64,000 nt of DNA, taken from positions 31,332-95,331 of the forward strand of contig JAACZV010000023.1 of assembly GCA_009996515.1 (NCBI GenBank), written 5' to 3'. Positions 34,005 to 58,313 of the stretch are shown here, piece by piece. The position numbers and the translations under genes were made by a program. How positions within the stretch are numbered: the first letter of the stretch is position 1; the number at the start of each line of letters is the position of its first letter. A model generated the notes under the pieces. It was not told the origin of the DNA, searched no databases, and saw only the letters and a program-made list of their open reading frames with translations. The DNA is from Comamonadaceae bacterium. Lineage in GTDB: Bacteria > Pseudomonadota > Gammaproteobacteria > Burkholderiales > Burkholderiaceae_C.

Positions 34005-34748
34005 GTGACGCCCCCGCACATTGCCGTAGTCGACGACGAATCCGCCATCACCGAGCTGCTGGCCCACTACCTCGCCACCCATGGCTTCCGCACCACCCAG
34101 CTGCGCTCAGGGCGGGAGCTGATGGAGCTGATGCCGGCCGACCCGCCCGAGCTGGTGCTGCTGGACCTGGGCCTGCCCGGCGAGGACGGTTTCGCCATCG
34201 CGCGCCAGCTGCGCGAGCACTGGCGCTGCGGCCTGGTCATCATCACCGGCCGCGGCGACGCGGTGGACAAGGTGGTGGGCCTGGAGGTGGGCGCCGACGA
34301 CTACGTCACCAAGCCCTTCGACCTGCGCGAGCTGGTGGCCCGCATCAAGGCCGTGCTGCGCCGCATCGAGCCCGCGCCGCCCGCCGTCGTGGCACCGCTT
34401 GCGGCGCCGCCACCGCCGGCCGCCGGGGCGAGCCTGGGCTTCCTGGGCTGGCGGCTGGACCTGGCCGCGCGCCGCCTGGACGACCCGGCCGGCGCCGAGG
34501 TCAGGCTGACGACCGGCGAGTTCGAGCTGCTGGCGACGCTGGCCCAGCATGCCGGGCGCGTGCTGTCGCGCGACTTCCTGCTGGAGCGCACGCGCGGCCG
34601 CGAGGCCGCGCCGTTCGACCGCACGATAGACGTGCAGGTGGGCCGCCTGCGCAAGAAGCTGGAGGCCGACGCGGAGAATCCGCAGATCATCAAGTCGGTG
34701 CGCGGCGCCGGCTACATCTTCATCCCGCCGGTGGAGCCGGTGTCCTAG
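34005..34748 (+). CDS. OmpR/PhoB-type response regulator
   Basis: A 247-residue response regulator with a receiver domain (IAVVDDESAITELL, phospho-aspartate Asp54 in LLDLGLPGEDG, and YVTKPFD) and a winged-helix domain (LTTGEFELLATLAQH, FDRTIDVQVGRLRKKLE and SVRGAGYIF). The start is GTG at 34005. A kinase gene begins right after its TAG stop, so the two form a two-component pair. Target genes are unknown. Confidence 0.92.
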   Translation: MTPPHIAVVDDESAITELLAHYLATHGFRTTQLRSGRELMELMPADPPELVLLDLGLPGEDGFAIARQLREHWRCGLVIITGRGDAVDKVVGLEVGADDYVTKPFDLRELVARIKAVLRRIEPAPPAVVAPLAAPPPPAAGASLGFLGWRLDLAARRLDDPAGAEVRLTTGEFELLATLAQHAGRVLSRDFLLERTRGREAAPFDRTIDVQVGRLRKKLEADAENPQIIKSVRGAGYIFIPPVEPVS

Positions 34749-42881: not shown

Positions 42882-43596
42882 TCCGGACTGGCTGCGGCCC
42901 GACTGGCCGCAGGTGACGGCCTTCATGACGACGCGCGGCATCAATCTGGGCCGCAAGGCGGGCGATCCGGCCGAGGTCCGGGCCCACCGCGCCGGCCTGG
43001 CCGAGTTGCTGGGCGCCCGCCCCATCTTCCTCGACCAGGTCCACGGCGCCGACGTCGTGCGGTTGCGGCCCGACTGGCACGACGACAACGCGCCGCAGGC
43101 CGATGCCGCCGTGTCCACCGACGCCGGGCTGGCCGTGGCCATCCTGGTGGCCGACTGCCTGCCCGTGCTGTTCAGCGCGCCCGGCGGCGTGGCCGGCGCG
43201 CACGCGGGCTGGCGGGGCCTGGCGGCGGGCGTGCTGGAGAACACCGTGGCCGCGTTGTGCGAGGCCGCGGGCTGCGAGCCCCGCGAGGTGAAGGCCTGGC
43301 TGGGCGCCTGCATAGGCCCCACGGCCTTCGAGGTGGGGCCCGAGGTCGTCAAGGCCTTCGGCCGCGAGCCGCTGGAGCGCGACCAGCCCGGTTTCCTCTA
43401 CCGGCCCAACCCCCAGCCGCGCTGGCGCGCCAACCTGGCCTTGCTGGCTCGCGAACGCTTGAGCTCGGTGAATGTCACCCAAATCAGCGGCGGCCAGTGG
43501 TGCACGCTGACCGATGATTCACGCTTCTTCTCGTTCCGCGGCGAGGCCCTGGGCCGACCCCGCGGCCGCATGGCCGCCTGCATCAGCCTGCGCTGA
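42871..43596 (+). CDS. pgeF: Peptidoglycan editing factor PgeF (laccase-domain, YfiH family)
   Basis: A 241-residue polyphenol-oxidase-like protein. Metal-site motifs are DQVHGADVV, VADCLPVLF and AHAGWRGLAAGVL, followed by GACIGPTAFEVG and the end DSRFFSFRGE. YfiH/PgeF hydrolyses the bond of L-serine wrongly placed in peptidoglycan precursors; earlier it was labelled a laccase. The ATG at 42871 is inside maiA, 11 bases before its stop. The 3' end overlaps a convergent small gene by 78 bases. Confidence 0.9.
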   Translation: MRLDPDWLRPDWPQVTAFMTTRGINLGRKAGDPAEVRAHRAGLAELLGARPIFLDQVHGADVVRLRPDWHDDNAPQADAAVSTDAGLAVAILVADCLPVLFSAPGGVAGAHAGWRGLAAGVLENTVAALCEAAGCEPREVKAWLGACIGPTAFEVGPEVVKAFGREPLERDQPGFLYRPNPQPRWRANLALLARERLSSVNVTQISGGQWCTLTDDSRFFSFRGEALGRPRGRMAACISLR

Positions 43597-43785
43597 GGCC
43601 TCGGCGGCGCGGCGCCGCCGCTTGCGGCCCGGCGTGCCGAGGATGTAGAGCAACAGGCCCAGGGGGAGGACGCCGTAGAGCAGCAGCGTGATGAAGGCGC
43701 CCAGCAAGCTGCCCTGCGGGCTGGTGGCTTCGGCGGCGGCCATCATCAGCGCCACATAGGCCCAGGCGATCGCGACGAGATACAT
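43519..43785 (-). CDS. Small membrane protein overlapping pgeF
   Basis: An 88-residue protein with two membrane segments (MYLVAIAWAYVALMMAA and LLGAFITLLLYGVLPLGLLLYILG) followed by a basic patch GRKRRRRAAE and an Ala-rich hydrophilic tail. The last 26 codons lie antisense to the 3' end of pgeF. No domain is recognised. The hydrophobic part lies outside the overlap, which argues for a real gene. Confidence 0.6.
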   Translation of the reverse strand: MYLVAIAWAYVALMMAAAEATSPQGSLLGAFITLLLYGVLPLGLLLYILGTPGRKRRRRAAEASAQADAGGHAAAGSAQGLAAEREEA

Positions 43786-43843
43786 GGCGGCGGCGTGTCA
43801 TGGGCGCGTCAGCGCCCGAGGTTAAAAACCGGTCGGCGGAATG

Positions 43844-43859
43844 TGGCAAGCTTATTGCA
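43844..43859 (+). promoter_or_regulatory. Sigma-54 (-24/-12) promoter candidate upstream of phaC
   Basis: TGGCAAGCTTATTGCA matches the TGGCA-N6-TTGCA consensus almost perfectly, with GG and GC ten bases apart. It lies 45 bases before the phaC start, which leaves a leader of about 33 bases. No NtrC-type enhancer was recognised upstream. Confidence 0.7.
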
Positions 43860-43903
43860 ACGGACCGAGACAACACCGCCCTGGCGGGAGATCCGAGGAA
43901 GAC

Positions 43904-45577
43904 ATGGCCACTCGCAAGAAGAACGACGCGTCGCCCGGGATGGAGGCCTTGCCCTTCGCGGAGCTGATGCAGCAGATGGCGCATCTGCCGCAGATCTCGC
44001 CGGCGGCGCTGGCCGAACTGCAGGCCGACTACCTGAAGCAGGCCACGGCGCTGTGGAACGCGTCTCTGGGCCAGGGCGAGGCTGCGGCCATCGGTGACCG
44101 TCGCTTCGCCGCGCCCGAATGGCAGGCCAACCCGGCCGCCAGCTTCATGACCCGGCTCTACCTGCTCAACAGCCAGACGCTGGGCAAGATGGCGGCGGCC
44201 GTGGAGGCCGACGACAAGACCCAGGCGCGCATCCGCTTCGCCGTGCAGCAGTTCGTCGACGCGGCCTCGCCCAGCAACTTCCTGGCGCTGAACCCGGAGG
44301 CGCAGAAGCTGGCGCTGGACAGCCACGGCGAGACGCTGGCCCGCGGCCTGCAGCAGCTGTGGGGCGACCTGCAGCGCGGCCATGTGTCGCAGACCGACGA
44401 GAGCGCCTTCGAGGTCGGCAAGAACGTGGCCACCACGCCGGGCAGCATCGTGTTCGAGAACGAGCTGTTCCAGCTCATCGAGTACGCGCCGCTGACCGCG
44501 AAGGTGCATGCCCGGCCCTTTCTGCTGGTGCCGCCCTGCATCAACAAGTTCTACATCCTCGACCTGCAGCCGGACAACTCGCTGATCCGCTACGCCGTCG
44601 CGCAAGGCCACCGCGTCTTCGTCGTCAGCTGGCGCAACCCCGACGAGTCGATCAAGCACCTGACCTGGGACGACTACATCGAGCAGGGCGCCATCCAGGC
44701 CATCCAGGTGGTGCAGGAGATCGCTGGCCAGGACCAGATCAATGCGTTGGGCTTCTGCGTCGGCGGCACCATCCTCGCGACGGCGCTGGCCGTGCTGGCC
44801 GCGCGCGGCCAGCAGCCGGCGGCCAGCCTGACGCTGCTGACCACGCTGCTGGACTTCGCCGACAACGGCATCCTGGACATCTTCGTCGACGAGGCCAGCG
44901 TGCGCCTGCGCGAGGCCACGCTGGGCGCCGAGGCGCCTCAGGGCCCGCAGCTGCTGCACGGCCAGGAGCTGGCGACGACCTTCAGCTTCCTGCGGCCCAA
45001 CGACCTGGTGTGGAACTACGTCGTCGGCAACTATCTGAAGGGCGAGGCGCCGCCGGCCTTCGACCTGCTGTACTGGAACGGCGACTCGACGAATCTGCCC
45101 GGGCCCATGTACTGCTGGTATCTGCGCCACACCTATCTGCAGAACGAGCTGAAGCTGCCCGGCAAGCTGACCGTCTGCGGCGAGAAGCTGGACCTGGGGG
45201 CCATCCAGGCCCCGGTCTACATCTACGGCTCGCGCGAGGACCACATCGTGCCCTGGCAGGCCGCCTATCGCAGCACCCAGATCCTCAAGGGCCGAAAGCG
45301 CTTCGTGCTGGGCGCCTCGGGCCACATCGCCGGCGTCATCAACCCGCCGGCCAAGGGCAAGCGCAGCCACTGGATCGCCAAGAGCACGGCGCTGCCGGCC
45401 GACCCCGAGGCCTGGTTCAAGAGCGCGACCGAGCATCCGGGCAGCTGGTGGACGGACTGGTCCGCCTGGCTGGCCTCGCATGCCGGCCCCATGAAGCCCG
45501 CGCCCAAGGCGCCGGGCAGCCGCAAATACAAATCCATCGAGCCGGCGCCGGGCCGGTACGTCAAGGTCAAGGCCTGA
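43904..45577 (+). CDS. phaC: Class I poly(3-hydroxyalkanoate) synthase
   Basis: A 557-residue PHA synthase. The lipase-like box GFCVGG contains the catalytic Cys285. The Asp and His of the triad are expected in the [11 protein letters not shown] and [14 protein letters not shown] segments. [20 protein letters not shown] and [17 protein letters not shown] are family signatures. It polymerises (R)-3-hydroxyacyl-CoA on granule surfaces. GAGGAAG precedes the ATG at 43904; the ATG at 43841 overlaps the sigma-54 site and is rejected. phaA and phaB follow in an operon. Confidence 0.96.
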
Positions 45578-45590
45578 AAGGAAGCCCCCC

Positions 45591-46775
45591 ATGAGCAAGC
45601 AAGACATCGTCATCGTCGCCGCGGCCCGCACGGCCATCGGCAAATTCGGCGGCACGCTGGCCAAGACGCCGGCCAGCGAACTGGGGGCGGCCGTCATCCA
45701 GGACCTGCTGCGCCGCACCGGCCTGGCCGGTGACCAGATCGGCGAGGTCATCCTGGGCCAGGTGCTGACGGCGGGCGTGGGCCAGAACCCGGCCCGCCAG
45801 GCCGTCATCAAGGCCGGCCTGCCCCAGGCTGTGCCGGCCATGACCATCAACAAGGTCTGCGGCTCGGGCCTGAAGGCCGTCATGCTGGCGGCCCAGGCCA
45901 TCCGCGACGGCGACAGCGACATCATCATCGCCGGCGGCCAGGAGAGCATGAGCATGAGCCCGCACGTGCTGAACGGCTCGCGCGACGGCCAGCGCATGGG
46001 CGACTGGAAGATGGTCGATACCATGATCGTCGACGGCCTGTGGGACGTCTACAACCAGTACCACATGGGCATCACGGCCGAGAACGTGGCCAAGAAATAC
46101 GGCATCACGCGCGAGCAGCAGGATGCGCTGGCGCTGGGCAGCCAGCAGAAGGCCGCCGCGGCCCAGGACGCCGGCCGCTTCAAGGACGAGATCGTGCCCT
46201 TCACGATCCCGCAGAAGAAGGGCGACCCCGTCGTCTTCGCGGCCGACGAGTTCATCAACCGCAAGACCAACGCCGACGCGCTGGCGGGCCTGCGCCCCGC
46301 CTTCGACAAGGCCGGCAGCGTGACCGCCGGCAACGCCTCGGGCCTGAACGACGGCGCGGCCGGCGTGGTGGTCATGACGGCCGCCAAGGCCGCGGCGCTG
46401 GGCCTGACGCCGCTGGCGCGCATCGCCTCCTACGCGTCCGCCGCCCTGGACCCGGCCTACATGGGCATGGGCCCGGTGCCCGCCGCCCGCAAGGCGCTGG
46501 AGCGCGCCGGCTGGAAGCCCGCCGACCTGGACCTGCTGGAGATCAACGAGGCCTTCGCGGCCCAGGCCTGCGCCGTGCACAACGAGATGGGCTGGGATAC
46601 GTCCAAGGTCAACGTCAACGGCGGCGCCATCGCGCTGGGCCACCCCATCGGTGCCAGCGGCTGCCGCGTGCTGGTCACGCTGCTGCACGAGATGCTCAAG
46701 CGCGACGCCAAGAAGGGCATCGCGTCGCTGTGCATAGGCGGTGGCATGGGCGTGGCCCTGACCGTCGAGCGCTGA
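45591..46775 (+). CDS. phaA: Acetyl-CoA acetyltransferase (beta-ketothiolase)
   Basis: A 394-residue thiolase. The acylation cysteine is Cys90 in [11 protein letters not shown]. The downstream signatures [34 protein letters not shown] and CIGGGMG contain the other catalytic residues. It condenses two acetyl-CoA to acetoacetyl-CoA for PHB synthesis. A GGAAG ribosome site precedes the ATG, 13 bases after phaC. Location between phaC and phaB supports PhaA over a degradative thiolase. Confidence 0.95.
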
Positions 46776-46809: not shown

Positions 46810-47547
46810 ATGAGCCAGAAGATTGCCTACGTGACCGGCGGCATGGGCGGCATCGGCACCGCCATCTGCCAGAAGCTGGCCAAGGCCGGCTTCAAGGTCA
46901 TCGCCGGTTGCGGCCCCAGCCGCGACTACCAGAAGTGGCTGGATGAGCAGAAGGCCCTGGGCTACAACTTCCATGCCTCGGTCGGCAACGTGGCCGACTG
47001 GGATTCGACGGTGGAGGCCTTCACCAAGGCCATCAGCGAACACGGCGTCATCGACGTGCTGGTCAACAACGCCGGCATCACGCGCGACCGCATGTTCCTG
47101 AAGATGACGCCCGAGGACTGGAAGGCCGTCATCGACACCAACCTGAACTCCATGTTCAACGTGACCAAGCAGGTCGTGCCGGGCATGGTGGAGAAGGGCT
47201 GGGGCCGCATCATCCAGATCTCGTCGGTCAACGGCGAGAAGGGCCAGGCCGGCCAGACCAACTACTCGGCCGCCAAGGCCGGCATGCACGGCTTCACGAT
47301 GGCGCTGGCGCAGGAGCTGGCCGCCAAGGGCGTCACCGTGAACACGGTGAGCCCCGGCTACATCGGCACCGACATGGTCAAGGCCATCAAGCCCGAGATC
47401 CTGGAGAAGATCGTCGCGACGATTCCGGTCAAGCGCCTGGGCACGCCGGAGGAAATCGGTTCGGTGGTGACCTGGCTGGCCGGCGAGGACAGCGGCTTCA
47501 CGACCGGCGCGGACTTCTCCTGCAACGGCGGCCTGCATATGGGCTGA
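46810..47547 (+). CDS. phaB: NADPH-dependent acetoacetyl-CoA reductase
   Basis: A 245-residue short-chain dehydrogenase. The cofactor motif is AYVTGGMGGIGTAIC, the NAG motif is VLVNNAGITRDRMF, and the catalytic Ser-Tyr-Lys lies in IIQISSVNGEKGQAGQTNYSAAKAG. It reduces acetoacetyl-CoA to (R)-3-hydroxybutyryl-CoA, the PhaC monomer. ACGAGGAGA precedes the ATG. Third gene of the PHA operon. Confidence 0.96.
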   Translation: MSQKIAYVTGGMGGIGTAICQKLAKAGFKVIAGCGPSRDYQKWLDEQKALGYNFHASVGNVADWDSTVEAFTKAISEHGVIDVLVNNAGITRDRMFLKMTPEDWKAVIDTNLNSMFNVTKQVVPGMVEKGWGRIIQISSVNGEKGQAGQTNYSAAKAGMHGFTMALAQELAAKGVTVNTVSPGYIGTDMVKAIKPEILEKIVATIPVKRLGTPEEIGSVVTWLAGEDSGFTTGADFSCNGGLHMG

Positions 47548-52719: not shown

Positions 52720-53529
52720 ATGCAAGTCGGCCTGTTCATCATTGGCGACGAGATCCTGTCCGGCAAGCGCCAGGACTCGCACCTGGCCAAGTTCATCGAG
52801 CTGCTGTCCGCGCGCGGCATGCAGCTCGGCTGGGCGCAGTACCTGGGCGATGACCGCGAGCTGCTGACGGCGCGGCTGCGCGAGGCCTTTGCCGGCGGCG
52901 ACCTGGTGGTCAGCTGCGGCGGCATCGGCGCCACGCCCGACGACCACACCCGCCAGGCCGCGGCCGCCGCGCTGGGCCGGCCGCTGGCGCTGCACCCCGA
53001 GGCGCGCGAGCTGATCTGGCAGCGCGTGCAGCAGATGGCGGCGGAGCAGGGCGCGACGGCCGACCCCGACCACCCGGACACGCTGCGCCGCTTCCAGATG
53101 GGCGTCTTCCCCGACGGCGCCGGCCTGGTTCCCAACCCCTACAACAAGATCCCCGGCTTCTTCGTCGGCAACGTGCACTTCCTGCCGGGCTTCCCCGTCA
53201 TGGCCCACCCCATGATGGCCTGGGTGCTGGACCGCTACCCCCAGCTGCACCGCCAGCTGGGCATCCTCGAGCGCTCCCTGATCGTGCAGGGCGCGATGGA
53301 GGCCAGCCTGACGCCGCTGATGGAAGCCATCGAGGCCCGCTTCATGGGCGTCAAGGTCTTCAGCCTGCCCAGCGTGGACCACCCGCGCTGGGGGCGCTGC
53401 ATAGAGCTGGGCGTCAAGCTGGAGGCCCCGTCCGCGCTCGCGACGGACGCGCTCACGCCCGCCTACGACGCCCTGAAACAGGGCGTGATCCAGTTTGGTG
53501 CGTCGATCAGCACCGAGATGGTGCGATAA
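52720..53529 (+). CDS. CinA/MoaB-like molybdopterin-binding-fold protein
   Basis: A 269-residue protein with the MoCF-type fold. FIIGDEILSGKRQDSHLAKF, VVSCGGIGATPDDHTRQA and NKIPGFFVGNVHFLPGFPVM are characteristic of the stand-alone competence/damage-inducible CinA N-domain family. No CinA C-terminal nicotinamide amidase domain is present. The role in the cell is unclear. It is the last gene of the overlapped set starting at 49141. Confidence 0.84.
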   Translation: MQVGLFIIGDEILSGKRQDSHLAKFIELLSARGMQLGWAQYLGDDRELLTARLREAFAGGDLVVSCGGIGATPDDHTRQAAAAALGRPLALHPEARELIWQRVQQMAAEQGATADPDHPDTLRRFQMGVFPDGAGLVPNPYNKIPGFFVGNVHFLPGFPVMAHPMMAWVLDRYPQLHRQLGILERSLIVQGAMEASLTPLMEAIEARFMGVKVFSLPSVDHPRWGRCIELGVKLEAPSALATDALTPAYDALKQGVIQFGASISTEMVR

Positions 53530-53598
53530 CGCTCGCCCGACTCAGGGAGCCGTCCCATAATGCCCGTGTCGCGGGTCGGCAACCCATGTCGGTGCATC

Positions 53599-53614
53599 TG
53601 GCATGCAAACTGCT
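53599..53614 (+). promoter_or_regulatory. Sigma-54 promoter candidate upstream of glnA
   Basis: TGGCATGCAAACTGCT has GG and GC ten bases apart and matches TGGCA-N6-YTGC. It lies about 90 bases before glnA. A GGTGCA half-site of the NtrC type is at 53591-53596; the second half is not clear. CATAAT at about 53553-53558 could be part of a second, housekeeping promoter. Confidence 0.6.
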
Positions 53615-53688: not shown

Positions 53689-55104
53689 ATGGCCAAGACC
53701 GTCGCCGACGTGATGAACATGGTGAAGGAGAACGAAGTCAAGTTCGTCGACTTCCGCTTCACCGATACCCGTGGCAAGGAGCATCACGTCTCCGTGCCCG
53801 TCTCCCATTTCGACGAGGACAAGTTCACGTCGGGCCACGCCTTCGACGGTTCCTCCATCGCCGGCTGGAAGGGCATCGAGGCCTCGGACATGCTGCTGAT
53901 GCCCGACCCGAACACGGCCAACATCGACCCCTTCTTCGAAGAGCCGACGCTGATCCTGTCCTGCGACGTCGTCGACCCCGCCGACGGCAAGGCCTATGAG
54001 CGCGACCCGCGCTCGCTGGCCAAGCGCGCCGAGGCCTATCTGAAGAGCAGCGGCCTGGGCGACACCGCCTACTTCGGCCCCGAGCCCGAGTTCTTCATCT
54101 TCGACAGCGTGCGCTGGGGCAACGAGATGTCCGGCTCGTTCTTCAAGATCGAGTCGGAAGAGGGCGCCTGGAACACCGGCAAGGAATACGAGCACGGCAA
54201 CTCCGGCTACCGCCCCACCGTCAAGGGCGGCTACTTCCCCGTGCCCCCGGTCGACAGCGGCCAGGACATGCGCTCGGAGATGTGCCTGATCCTGGAGCAG
54301 ATGGGCATCCCGGTCGAGGTGCACCACCATGAGGTGGCCAACGCCGGCCAGATGGAGATCGGCACCAAGTTCAGCTCGCTGGTGCAGCGCGCCGACTGGA
54401 CCCAGCTGCAGAAGTACATCATCGCCAACGTCGCCCATGCCTATGGCAAGACGGCGACCTTCATGCCCAAGCCCATCGTCGGCGACAACGGCAGCGGCAT
54501 GCACGTGCACCAGTCCGTGTGGAAGGACGGCAAGAACCTGTTCGCCGGCGACGGCTATGCCGGCCTGAGCGAGTTCGCGCTGTACTACATCGGCGGCATC
54601 ATCAAGCACGCCCGCGCGCTGAACGCGATCACCAACCCCGGCACCAACAGCTACAAGCGCCTGGTGCCCGGCTTCGAGGCCCCGGTGAAGCTGGCCTACT
54701 CGGCCAAAAACCGCTCGGCCTCCATCCGCATCCCCTACGTGGCCAACCCCAAGGGCCGCCGCGTCGAGGCGCGCTTCCCCGATCCTTCGGCCAACCCCTA
54801 TCTGTGCTTCGCGGCCCTGCTGATGGCCGGCCTGGACGGCGTGGAGAACAAGATCCACCCGGGCGAGGCCGCCACCAAGGACCTGTACCACCTGCCGCCC
54901 GAGGAAGACGCGAAGATCCCGACCGTCTGCCACAGCCTGGACCAGGCGCTGGAGTACCTGGACAAGGACCGCGCCTTCCTGACCAAGGGCGGCGTGTTCA
55001 CCGATGCTTACATTGACGCCTACATCGAGCTGAAGATGCAGGAAGTGACGCGCTTCCGCATGGCGACCCATCCGGTCGAGTTCGACATGTACTACGCGCT
55101 GTGA
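53689..55104 (+). CDS. glnA: Glutamine synthetase, type I
   Basis: A 471-residue type I-beta glutamine synthetase. Motifs include [36 protein letters not shown], the [19 protein letters not shown] region and [10 protein letters not shown]. The adenylylation tyrosine is probably Tyr400 in [10 protein letters not shown], so activity should be tuned by GlnE. It assimilates ammonium in the cytoplasm. The gene begins at ATG 53689 after AGGAG. The ntrB-ntrC pair lies downstream. Confidence 0.98.
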
Positions 55105-55200: not shown

Positions 55201-55692
55201 ATGCTGAATCGACTGCTGGCACCGCTGTTCGTCCTGGCCAGCCTGGGCGCCCAAGCCCAGGGCACGGTCTACCGCTGCCCGGGCCCGCCGGTGCTGTACA
55301 CCGACGCGCTGTCCGCCAAGGAGGCGCACGAGAAGGGCTGCCGCACGATAGAAGGCACGCCCATCACCGTGGTGCAGGCGACCAAGCCGCGCCCCAGCGT
55401 GACGGCCGCGCCCGCCTCGGACGGGGCCCGCGGTGCTGAGGGGCGCGTCGATGCCGGCCAGCAGCGCGCGCGCGACGACGAACGCCGCCGCGTGCTGCAG
55501 GCCGAGCTGCGCCAGGCCGAGGAGCGGCTGGCGAACGCGCAGCGCGACTTCGGCAACGGCCAGGGCGAGCGCCGCGGCGACGAGCGCAACTACCAGAAGT
55601 ACCTGGACCGCATGGCCGAGCTCAAGGACAACATCGCCCGCTACGAGGCCGATGTGCAGGCGCTCAAGCGCGAGATTGCCAAGCTACCTTGA
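55201..55692 (+). CDS. Exported protein with C-terminal coiled coil, between glnA and ntrB
   Basis: A 163-residue protein with a Sec signal (MLNRLLAPLFVLASLGAQAQ), a DUF4124-like start GTVYRCPGPPVLYTDALSA with two cysteines (CP and GC), an Ala/Pro spacer and a charged coiled coil (RRRVLQAELRQAEERLANAQ; YQKYLDRMAELKDNIARYEA). Its function is unknown. It lies downstream of the glnA terminator, with ntrB 23 bases after its stop, so it is probably co-transcribed with ntrBC. Confidence 0.75.
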   Translation: MLNRLLAPLFVLASLGAQAQGTVYRCPGPPVLYTDALSAKEAHEKGCRTIEGTPITVVQATKPRPSVTAAPASDGARGAEGRVDAGQQRARDDERRRVLQAELRQAEERLANAQRDFGNGQGERRGDERNYQKYLDRMAELKDNIARYEADVQALKREIAKLP

Positions 55693-55715
55693 GGCGCCCG
55701 GCGCCTCGCCGCGCC

Positions 55716-56813
55716 ATGACTGACGCCTCCCTGCTGCCGGCCGAGTTCGCCGGCCTGGACCTGCTGGCCACCATGGTGGTCGTGGTCGGCGCCGATGGCG
55801 AATGCCTGTTCGCCAATGCGGCCTTCGAGAACGGCATGCGGCTGTCGCGCCGCGCGGTGCAGAAGGCCCAGCTGCCCGACTGGTTCGACGATGCCCAGCG
55901 CCTCACCGAGACGCTGGCCGGCGTGGCCGCCAACCAGTACTCCAGCAGCCGCTTCGACGCCTTGCTGCGCCGCGGCGCCTGGGCCCATGAGGACGGCCTG
56001 CCCGTGCATGTCATCGTGTCGCAGCTGGATGCGGCGGCGGACGGCGCAGCGCGCCTGCTGGTGGAGCTCATCGAGATTTCCAGCCAGACCCGCCAGGACC
56101 GCGACGAGCGCAATCTCGACCAGGTGCAGGCGACCAAGGAGCTGACCCGCAACCTGGCGCACGAGATCAAGAACCCGCTGGGCGGCATACGCGGTGCGGC
56201 CCAGCTGCTGGCGCTGGAGCTGCAGGAGTCGAATGCGGAGCTGACCGAGTACACCCAGGTCATCGTGCACGAGGTCGACCGGCTGCAGAGCCTGGTCGAC
56301 CGGCTGCTGGCGCCGCACCGGCGCGCGCAGGTCGTCGGCGACGTGAACATCCACGAGATCTGCGAGCGCGTGCGCGCGCTGGTGCTCATCGAGCATCCCA
56401 AGGGCCTGGTCATCACGCGCGACTACGACACCTCGCTGCCCGACTTCCGCGGCGACCGCGAGCAGCTGATCCAGATGGTGCTCAACATCGTGCAGAACGC
56501 CGCTCAGGCGCTCAGTTCGCGCATCGCAGCCGGCGACGCGCAGATCGTGCTACGCACGCGCGTGGCCCGCCAGGTCACGATAGGCAAGCAGCGCTGGCGC
56601 TTGGCATTGGAATTGCATATCGAGGACAACGGTCCCGGCGTGCCCGCCGAGATCCGGGATCGCATCTTCTTCCCCCTGGTCTCGGGGCGGGAGGGCGGCT
56701 CGGGCCTCGGACTCACGCTCGCGCAGACGATCGCCCAGCAGCACCAGGGCATGATCGACTGCGAGAGCGAGCCGGGCCTGACCAATTTCCGTATCACGCT
56801 GCCGCTGCCCTAG
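55716..56813 (+). CDS. glnL: Nitrogen regulation sensor kinase NtrB
   Basis: A 365-residue cytoplasmic histidine kinase. An N-terminal PAS-like domain (GLDLLATMVVVVGADGECLF) is followed by the phospho-acceptor His149 in RNLAHEIKNPLGGIRGA and an ATPase domain with NIVQNAAQAL, EDNGPGVP and GSGLGLTLAQTI. It phosphorylates or dephosphorylates NtrC according to PII signals. The ATG at 55716 is preferred; a TTG at 55689 overlaps the upstream stop. ntrC follows after 33 bases. Confidence 0.95.
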   Translation: MTDASLLPAEFAGLDLLATMVVVVGADGECLFANAAFENGMRLSRRAVQKAQLPDWFDDAQRLTETLAGVAANQYSSSRFDALLRRGAWAHEDGLPVHVIVSQLDAAADGAARLLVELIEISSQTRQDRDERNLDQVQATKELTRNLAHEIKNPLGGIRGAAQLLALELQESNAELTEYTQVIVHEVDRLQSLVDRLLAPHRRAQVVGDVNIHEICERVRALVLIEHPKGLVITRDYDTSLPDFRGDREQLIQMVLNIVQNAAQALSSRIAAGDAQIVLRTRVARQVTIGKQRWRLALELHIEDNGPGVPAEIRDRIFFPLVSGREGGSGLGLTLAQTIAQQHQGMIDCESEPGLTNFRITLPLP

Positions 56814-56846: not shown

Positions 56847-58313
56847 ATGAAATCCATCTGGGTTGTTGACGACGACCACTCGATCCGCTTCGTGCTCGAG
56901 AAGGCCCTGGCCCGTGAGGGCCTGCCGGTGCGGTCTTTTAGCAATGCGCGCGACATGCTGGCCGCGCTGGACGACGACAGCCCGCAGGTGCTGGTCTCCG
57001 ACATCCGCATGCCGGGCGGCTCGGGGCTGGAACTGCTGGCCAAGGTGAAGGCCCGCCTGCCGGCCCTGCCCGTCATCATCATGACGGCCTACTCCGACCT
57101 GGACAGCGCCGTGTCGGCCTTCCAGGGCGGCGCCTTCGAATACCTGCCCAAGCCCTTCGATCTGCCGCGCGCCGTGGAGCTGATACGCCGCGCGCAGGAG
57201 GAGAGCCAGCGCGAGGCCGGCGAGCAGGAGGCCGCGGCGCAGATGCCCGAGATGCTGGGCCAGGCGCCGGCCATGCAGGACGTGTTCCGCGCCATCGGCC
57301 GGCTGTCGCAGAGCAACGTGACGGTGCTGATCACCGGCGAGAGCGGCTCGGGCAAGGAGCTGGTCGCCCGTGCGCTGCACAAGCACAGCCCGCGCGGCGA
57401 CGGCCCCTTCGTCGCGATCAACACGGCCGCCATCCCCAAGGACTTGCTGGAGAGCGAGCTGTTCGGCCACGAGCGCGGCGCCTTCACGGGCGCCCAGGCC
57501 TCGCGGCGCGGCCGCTTCGAGCAGGCCGACGGCGGCACACTGTTCCTGGACGAGATCGGCGACATGCCCTTCGAGCTGCAGACGCGGCTGCTGCGCGTGC
57601 TGTCCGACGGCCAGTTCTACCGCGTCGGCGGCCACAGCCCGCTGCGCAGCAATGTGCGCGTCATCGCCGCCACGCACCAGAACCTCGAGGAGCGCGTGCG
57701 CCAGGGCGCGTTCCGCGAAGACCTGTTCCACCGCCTCAACGTGATCCGGCTGCGCCTGCCGCCGTTGCGCGAGCGCCGCGAGGACGTGCCCGCGCTGGCC
57801 CGCCACTTTCTGCAGCGCAGCGCGACGGAACTGGGCGTCGAGCCCAAGCGGCTGTCCGACGCCGCGCTGGCCCAGCTGACCCGCTTCGACTTTCCCGGCA
57901 ACGTGCGCCAGCTGGAGAACATCTGCCACTGGCTCAGCGTCATGGCGCCCAGCCAGGTCGTCGAGCCCAAGGACCTGCCGGACGAGCTGCAGCCCGGCTA
58001 CGTCCCCGCGCCGTCGACGCTGGCGGGTGCAGCGCCGGCCCCGGCGGTAACCGCCCTGCTGCCGCCTGCCAGCGCGCCGGCCAGCACCAGCAGCGGCGAA
58101 GGCTGGCTGGCCGACATGGCCGTCGATGCCCGCGCGCGGCTGCTGGCCGGAGAGCCGGACGTGTGGGATGCGCTGACCCGGCGCTTCGAGGCCCAGCTCA
58201 TCCTGACGGCGCTGGACCTCACGCGCGGCCGCCGCATCGAGGCCGCGCAGAAGCTGGGCATAGGCCGCAACACCATCACGCGCAAGATCCAGGAGCTGGG
58301 CCTGGACGTCTGA
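56847..58313 (+). CDS. glnG: Nitrogen regulation response regulator NtrC
   Basis: A 488-residue enhancer-binding protein. The receiver domain has Asp52 (VSDIRMPGG). The AAA+ domain has Walker A GESGSGKELVARALH and the sigma-54 contact loop GAFTGA, plus LFLDEIGDMP. The C-terminal Fis-type helix-turn-helix is AAQKLGIGRNTITRKIQELG. It activates sigma-54 promoters such as glnA when nitrogen is limiting. It lies downstream of ntrB in the same direction, probably in one transcript. Confidence 0.97.
   Translation: MKSIWVVDDDHSIRFVLEKALAREGLPVRSFSNARDMLAALDDDSPQVLVSDIRMPGGSGLELLAKVKARLPALPVIIMTAYSDLDSAVSAFQGGAFEYLPKPFDLPRAVELIRRAQEESQREAGEQEAAAQMPEMLGQAPAMQDVFRAIGRLSQSNVTVLITGESGSGKELVARALHKHSPRGDGPFVAINTAAIPKDLLESELFGHERGAFTGAQASRRGRFEQADGGTLFLDEIGDMPFELQTRLLRVLSDGQFYRVGGHSPLRSNVRVIAATHQNLEERVRQGAFREDLFHRLNVIRLRLPPLRERREDVPALARHFLQRSATELGVEPKRLSDAALAQLTRFDFPGNVRQLENICHWLSVMAPSQVVEPKDLPDELQPGYVPAPSTLAGAAPAPAVTALLPPASAPASTSSGEGWLADMAVDARARLLAGEPDVWDALTRRFEAQLILTALDLTRGRRIEAAQKLGIGRNTITRKIQELGLDV

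Follow-up and report, generated by a model that had tools for sequence, protein, structure and literature searches.

A conserved -24/-12-like element and a Pho-box-like block in the gap upstream of class I phaC in Roseateles-group bacteria

The phaCAB locus and its upstream gap

We analyzed a 64,000-nucleotide stretch (hereafter the window) of a Comamonadaceae draft genome (4.58 Mb, 48 contigs) whose nearest named phaC relatives, among the best 80 of 565 confirmed loci, belong to Pelomonas and Roseateles. Profile matches above cut-off place the following genes in the window.

43904 to 45577, forward strand: phaC, class I PHA synthase (TIGR01838), with its ATG at 43904
45591 to 46775, forward strand: phaA-type acetyl-CoA C-acyltransferase (thiolase; TIGR01930)
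46810 to 47547, forward strand: phaB-type acetoacetyl-CoA reductase (TIGR01829)
53689 to 55104, forward strand: glnA (TIGR00653)
55689 to 56813, forward strand: ntrB (NF008293)
56847 to 58313, forward strand: ntrC (TIGR01818)

These matches confirm the class I phaCAB operon and the NtrB and NtrC genes that an initial annotation had assigned to the window, and add GlnA. A gap of 118 bp separates phaC from a small divergent ORF (43522 to 43785, reverse strand; 88 aa; start codon at 43783 to 43785). The N-terminal half of its product is hydrophobic, a Pfam search of the translation returned no matches, and DNA resembling this ORF also flanks phaC in relatives. We describe two elements in the gap, the first of which adjoins the small ORF.

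43797 to 43828, forward strand: element A, a predicted upstream phaC promoter (GTCA at 43797 to 43800, GTCA at 43808 to 43811, -10-like TAAAAA at 43823 to 43828)
43842 to 43853, forward strand: left core of element B, TGTGGCAAGCTT, from the alignment of relatives
43844 to 43859, forward strand: element B, sigma-54-like, TGGCAAGCTTATTGCA, from its consensus match and its conservation in relatives
43870, forward strand: predicted sigma-54 transcription start, placed by spacing

Two conserved elements upstream of phaC

The sigma-54 -24/-12 consensus, TGGCACGNNNNTTGCW, has 12 specified positions. Element B, which begins 60 nt before the phaC ATG, matches 11 of them with exact GG-N10-GC spacing; its sole mismatch is at position 6, where it has A instead of C. 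No other site in a scan of the 64-kb window has one mismatch or fewer. The predicted start at 43870 would leave a leader of 34 nt with GAGGA at 43895 to 43899. Across the genome, the pattern TGGCA-N6-TTGCW occurs at nine sites, versus three for the backwards control pattern; one of the nine falls within ntrB. The sigma-54-like TGGCATTGGAATTGCA at 56602 to 56617, inside the ntrB coding sequence, is probably a non-promoter match.

We then scored every upstream GG-N10-GC site, disregarding the spacer, in the named phaC loci that ranked as the best 80 of 565 confirmed, with a threshold of at least 10/12 and 20 rounds of dinucleotide shuffling as the null. Such a site lies upstream of phaC in 28 of these 80 loci (shuffles: mean, 1.0; maximum, 3). 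Positions 6 to 9 read AGCT in 27 of the 28 high-scoring sites; the exception, L080, is the sole locus among these best 80 with a comparably scoring site and a different spacer. Element B is missing from 50 of the 80, including four of the five labelled Paucibacter, whereas R. saccharophilus DSM 654 (L010) carries it exactly. A second selection, by TGGCAAGCT, fixes positions 1 to 9 by choice and was applied to 82 regions (the same best 80 of 565, the window, and locus L096); it recovered 32 regions, or 31 distinct rows, and left 50 without. In the 31 rows, GC is present at positions 14 and 15 in 29 and TTGC at positions 12 to 15 in 28, while nine finish in TGCC, off the consensus W. Two metagenome-assembled loci (L009 and L013) have lost the -12 half and retained TGTGGCAAGCTT. 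Between the Pelomonas and Mitsuaria groups, by eye, element B aligns and its flanks do not. The near-perfect -24/-12 site reported by the initial annotation is thus a real, conserved -24/-12-like element, correctly placed before the PHA operon.

Exact copies of the 15-base TGGCAAGCTTNTTGC occur in 16 of 120 family genomes, one each: 10 lie before phaC, 2 within phaC 3′ ends, and 3 within other ORFs. The 16th (L173, in G049) has AGCTTG as its spacer and stands 67 nt upstream of an ORF that looks, by eye, like the nitrogen gene glutamate synthase; it alone of the 16 precedes a gene that is not phaC. In L004, a metagenome-assembled contig under the label Methylotenera sp., the phaC locus shows 89% identity with that of the window and equals R. 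puraquae (L006) across 60 bases around element B; mislabelling or contamination is likely.

Element A came from aligning the gaps. Its pattern, GTCA-N7-GT(A/C)A-N11-TA(A/C/T)A with rigid spacing, is found in 50 of the 82 regions (80 of them the best of 565) and in none of each of 20 shuffle rounds; as some of these loci also supplied the pattern, this count describes the set and is not an independent test. A first regular expression had matched 37 of the 80 loci (best 80 of 565). By the strict patterns, 28 of these 80 loci (again the best of 565) carry both elements, 20 only A, 2 only B, and 30 neither; L008, one of the two B-only loci, has the element A block with one base changed. We also considered element A as a promoter of the small divergent ORF and rejected this, as that strand shows no recognised layout and the pattern has no reverse-strand match in the 82 regions.

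In element A, two GTCA-type half-sites form a direct repeat of 11 bp, and the -10 begins 26 bp after the first of them. Escherichia coli phoA and pstS share this geometry (GTCA-N7-GTCA-N11-TATAGT/TATAAC, same offset), and element A is in this respect like Pho-box promoters; ugpB has the repeat but lacks a -10 in the corresponding place, and phoB and phoE have neither. In 1.64 Mb (36%) of the genome, the pattern occurs only at phaC and there are no pst or pho genes; since the pst operon is absent from these 1.64 Mb, the assignment to PhoB is inferred from geometry. The best PhoB-like matches in the same 1.64 Mb include an OmpR above its NCBIfam cut-off (L147) and a PmrA/QseB-like protein below cut-off (L323). 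The window itself encodes an OmpR-family response regulator (34005 to 34745; NCBIfam OmpR, below cut-off), a candidate binder of element A. From this analysis, element A is probably a PhoB/OmpR-type promoter of phaC, and possibly the main one.

Sigma-54 promoter, operator, or NtrC target

As a positive control, we turned to glnA, where the window carries both parts of an NtrC-activated promoter.

53510 to 53524, forward strand: perfect, palindromic NtrC box, GCACC-N5-GGTGC, before glnA
53599 to 53614, forward strand: sigma-54-type glnA promoter, TGGCATGCAAACTGCT

This box is the only one in the window with no mismatch, and its center lies about 108 bp before the predicted sigma-54 start; it shares bases with the 3′ end of the preceding gene, and box and promoter recur in relatives. 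We collected 44 glnA upstream regions (19 from a genus search that included our own genome and 25 from named genomes). The counts leave aside L169, the glnA of G014, whose match begins at a different offset in the locus, and six other glutamine-synthetase-like genes (L170 and L214 to L218); L169 agrees with the set in its 9/12 site, C at base 6, and perfect NtrC box. All 44 regions have a sigma-54-type site of at least 9/12, in 15 versions, and base 6 is C or T in every one, though the scoring itself credits C there. The glnA-ntrBC promoter region (53510 to 53614) and the phaC gap, both in the window, each place a GG-N10-GC core ahead of a metabolic operon; they differ in that glnA regions combine NtrC boxes with a varying spacer and C or T at base 6, whereas phaC has no box, a fixed AGCTT, and A. 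In 15 genomes compared at both loci, positions 6 to 10 take six versions at glnA and are AGCTT in 15/15 at phaC.

We hold with moderate confidence that element B, a conserved feature of many genomes of Roseateles and Pelomonas, works as a sigma-54 promoter of phaCAB under an activator other than NtrC. The match of 11/12 is without equal in the window, sites of at least 10/12 far exceed the shuffles among the best 80 of 565 loci, and the -12 bases are mostly retained even in rows selected only by the left half. Exact copies occur once per genome, most of them before phaC. The genome encodes one RpoN (PF04552; E = 7.6e-64) and 13 PF00158 sigma-54 activator domains, 11 of them strong; among the 10 strong activators besides NtrC, one PEP-CTERM regulator and one PrpR exceed NCBIfam cut-offs. 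The distance between elements A and B varies from 14 to 63 bp, which fits an autonomous promoter. We took as the start the in-frame start codon nearest element B that has a Shine-Dalgarno sequence (our own rule); the distance from the element to it is 37 to 147 nt across 31 loci and never less than 37, about the least room for a Shine-Dalgarno sequence after a sigma-54 start, and this counts for a sigma-54 promoter; the argument is weakened by L009, where the distance is 38 nt and the -12 half is gone. Other features sit poorly with such a promoter. The spacer is unusually fixed (AGCT in 27 of 28 high-scoring sites), and we know of no requirement of sigma-54 for a fixed spacer at positions 6 to 10. 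Base 6 is A, against C or T in every glnA region; 9 of 31 rows end off consensus; two loci dropped the -12 half and held the left; 50 of the 80 loci (best 80 of 565) do without the element, with L080 alone offering a comparable site with another spacer; and no activator site was found at phaC. With its spacer fixed and base 6 off consensus, element B might also be read without sigma-54.

Element B might instead be the operator of a regulator dedicated to phaC, its likeness to sigma-54 promoters incidental, that represses or modulates the upstream promoter; we regard this as possible and somewhat doubtful. As part of the same tentative proposal, the operator would sit behind that promoter, at or close to the beginning of the transcript. 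In several relatives the element, TGGCAAGCTTCTTGCC, is the palindrome GGCAAG-CTT-CTTGCC with 6/6 arm pairs, which makes an operator a fair rival, and its invariant spacer and the survival of TGTGGCAAGCTT after loss of the -12 half point the same way. So does the company it keeps: the strict element A pattern is present in 28 of 30 loci with element B versus 20 of 50 without (best 80 of 565). However, the window's own version forms only 4/6 arm pairs, conservation is asymmetric (a fixed left half and a varied right half), and the window copy meets all sigma-54 positions but one at exact spacing. The exact element is single copy wherever present, so no regulon is seen, which also argues against an operator.

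Three further readings of the element B region were rejected. For an operator with many targets, GGCAAGNNNNTTGC across eight genomes gave many scattered sites among the matches listed; GGCAAGCTTCTTGC, among the matches listed for the same number of genomes, gave mostly one each and two in G143. An mRNA hairpin built on GGCAAG-CTT-CTTGCC would form only 4/6 arm pairs both in L044 and in the version carried by the window. For a sigma-70 promoter over element B, a consensus scan of 43550 to 44000 gave none, and the hexamers TATTGC, CAAGCT, and TTGCAA at the element are poor by eye.

The initial annotation had gone further, proposing a direct route through NtrC, here taken as activation of a sigma-54 promoter of phaC by phosphorylated NtrC at low nitrogen, and had suggested a search for NtrC sites upstream. 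We consider this route very unlikely. The ntrB and ntrC genes lie about 12 kb from phaC, the sigma-54-like core would suit NtrC, and PHB is usually produced when nitrogen, phosphate, or oxygen is scarce, according to the portions consulted of PMC5648810 and PMC7204398. Yet an NtrC box with one mismatch or fewer is present in 42 of the 44 glnA regions (20 perfect; shuffles: mean, 1.8; maximum, 5) and, within 330 bp upstream of element B, in none of the 31 phaC regions with element B (30 loci plus the window; shuffle mean, 1.1), which makes the NtrC link evident at glnA and not at phaC. Boxes with two mismatches occur in 5 of these 31 regions, below the shuffle mean of 12.6, and the window has none with two or fewer from -600 to +100 bp of the phaC start; an NtrC site that is weaker or lies farther off is possible. 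PHB moreover rises on ntrC deletion in Herbaspirillum seropedicae, another betaproteobacterium, and ntrC or ntrB mutants of H. seropedicae and Azospirillum brasilense make more PHB, as described in passages of PMC9049629 and PMC7204398. Given the missing box, any nitrogen control of phaC would probably pass through another activator. What stands of the earlier sigma-54/NtrC interpretation is therefore the conserved -24/-12-like element, together with rpoN and the 11 strong activator domains; the direct NtrC route is not supported.

A chance match is highly improbable: loose matches are common in the window (93 with three mismatches or fewer), but they are fewer than in shuffled sequence (mean, 138) and so uninformative, and the conservation above shuffles (28 of the best 80 of 565 loci versus a mean of 1.0), in sequence whose flanks fail to align by eye from group to group, disfavors chance.

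A candidate tandem arrangement for phaCAB

Taken together, these sequence features suggest that phaCAB probably has tandem promoters, a commoner one of PhoB/OmpR type and a sigma-54-like one of the Roseateles group. The sigma-54 holoenzyme would bind element B and start phaCAB transcription near 43870, driven by one of the ten non-NtrC activators bound elsewhere, and element A would give a second phaC start near 43835. The operon would thereby receive two inputs, one from a response regulator, shared more widely across the family, and one from sigma-54, found in the Roseateles group. The fullest version, in which Roseateles phaCAB stacks two promoters that answer nutrient limitation, one PhoB-like, phosphate-type, and widespread, the other a lineage-specific sigma-54 promoter whose spacer is fixed as AAGCTT and whose activator is new to PHB, so that PHB is made if either is on, is one we consider unlikely to hold in every part.

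If the tandem reading is true, it would account, at the level of transcripts, for PHB being triggered by phosphate limitation as well as by another limitation, and would give bioplastic producers handles. In the review portions consulted, accounts of nutrient sensing by class I phaC in Betaproteobacteria rest largely on the phenotypes of mutants. The 118-bp gap, with its two short conserved elements, supplies exact targets for mutation. The missing glnA-type box also cautions against presuming NtrC control of phaC.

Both elements have partial precedents. In Pseudomonas, RpoN affects PHA, with phaG and phaF named (Hoffmann and Rehm, as cited in passages of PMC7204398 and PMC9049629). Sigma-54 would bear on PHA accumulation in both cases; those genes belong to producers of mcl-PHA, whereas element B precedes class I phaC in a betaproteobacterium. 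In Halomonas, PMC13101641 links sigma-54 disruption with PHB. PMC5491218, which names a sigma-54/NtrC-dependent PHB depolymerase, and PMC5748707, which names a phasin and depolymerases under nitrogen starvation, do not mention phaC, and among the open-access papers searched, none reports, in its title or abstract opening, a mapped sigma-54 promoter on class I phaC of the Roseateles group. For element A, the Acinetobacter pha locus is activated by PhoB and has Pho-box promoters before its PHA synthesis genes (Schembri 1995, via a passage of PMC7204398); here GTAAG or GTCAG forms the second half-site, and any role of PhoB is putative. The H. seropedicae phaC genes are up at high, not low, phosphate in the part consulted of PMC8222739, which argues against extending a simple Pho reading to that species.

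We also considered a PhaR operator at phaC and rejected it, since by eye the TGCTGCA-type boxes that precede phaP and phaR of our own genome (L149 and L148), of the form TTGCTGCAC-N-GCACA, do not recur in the phaC gap. Those boxes are probable PhaR operators and, like the phaC elements, cis-elements of PHA genes.
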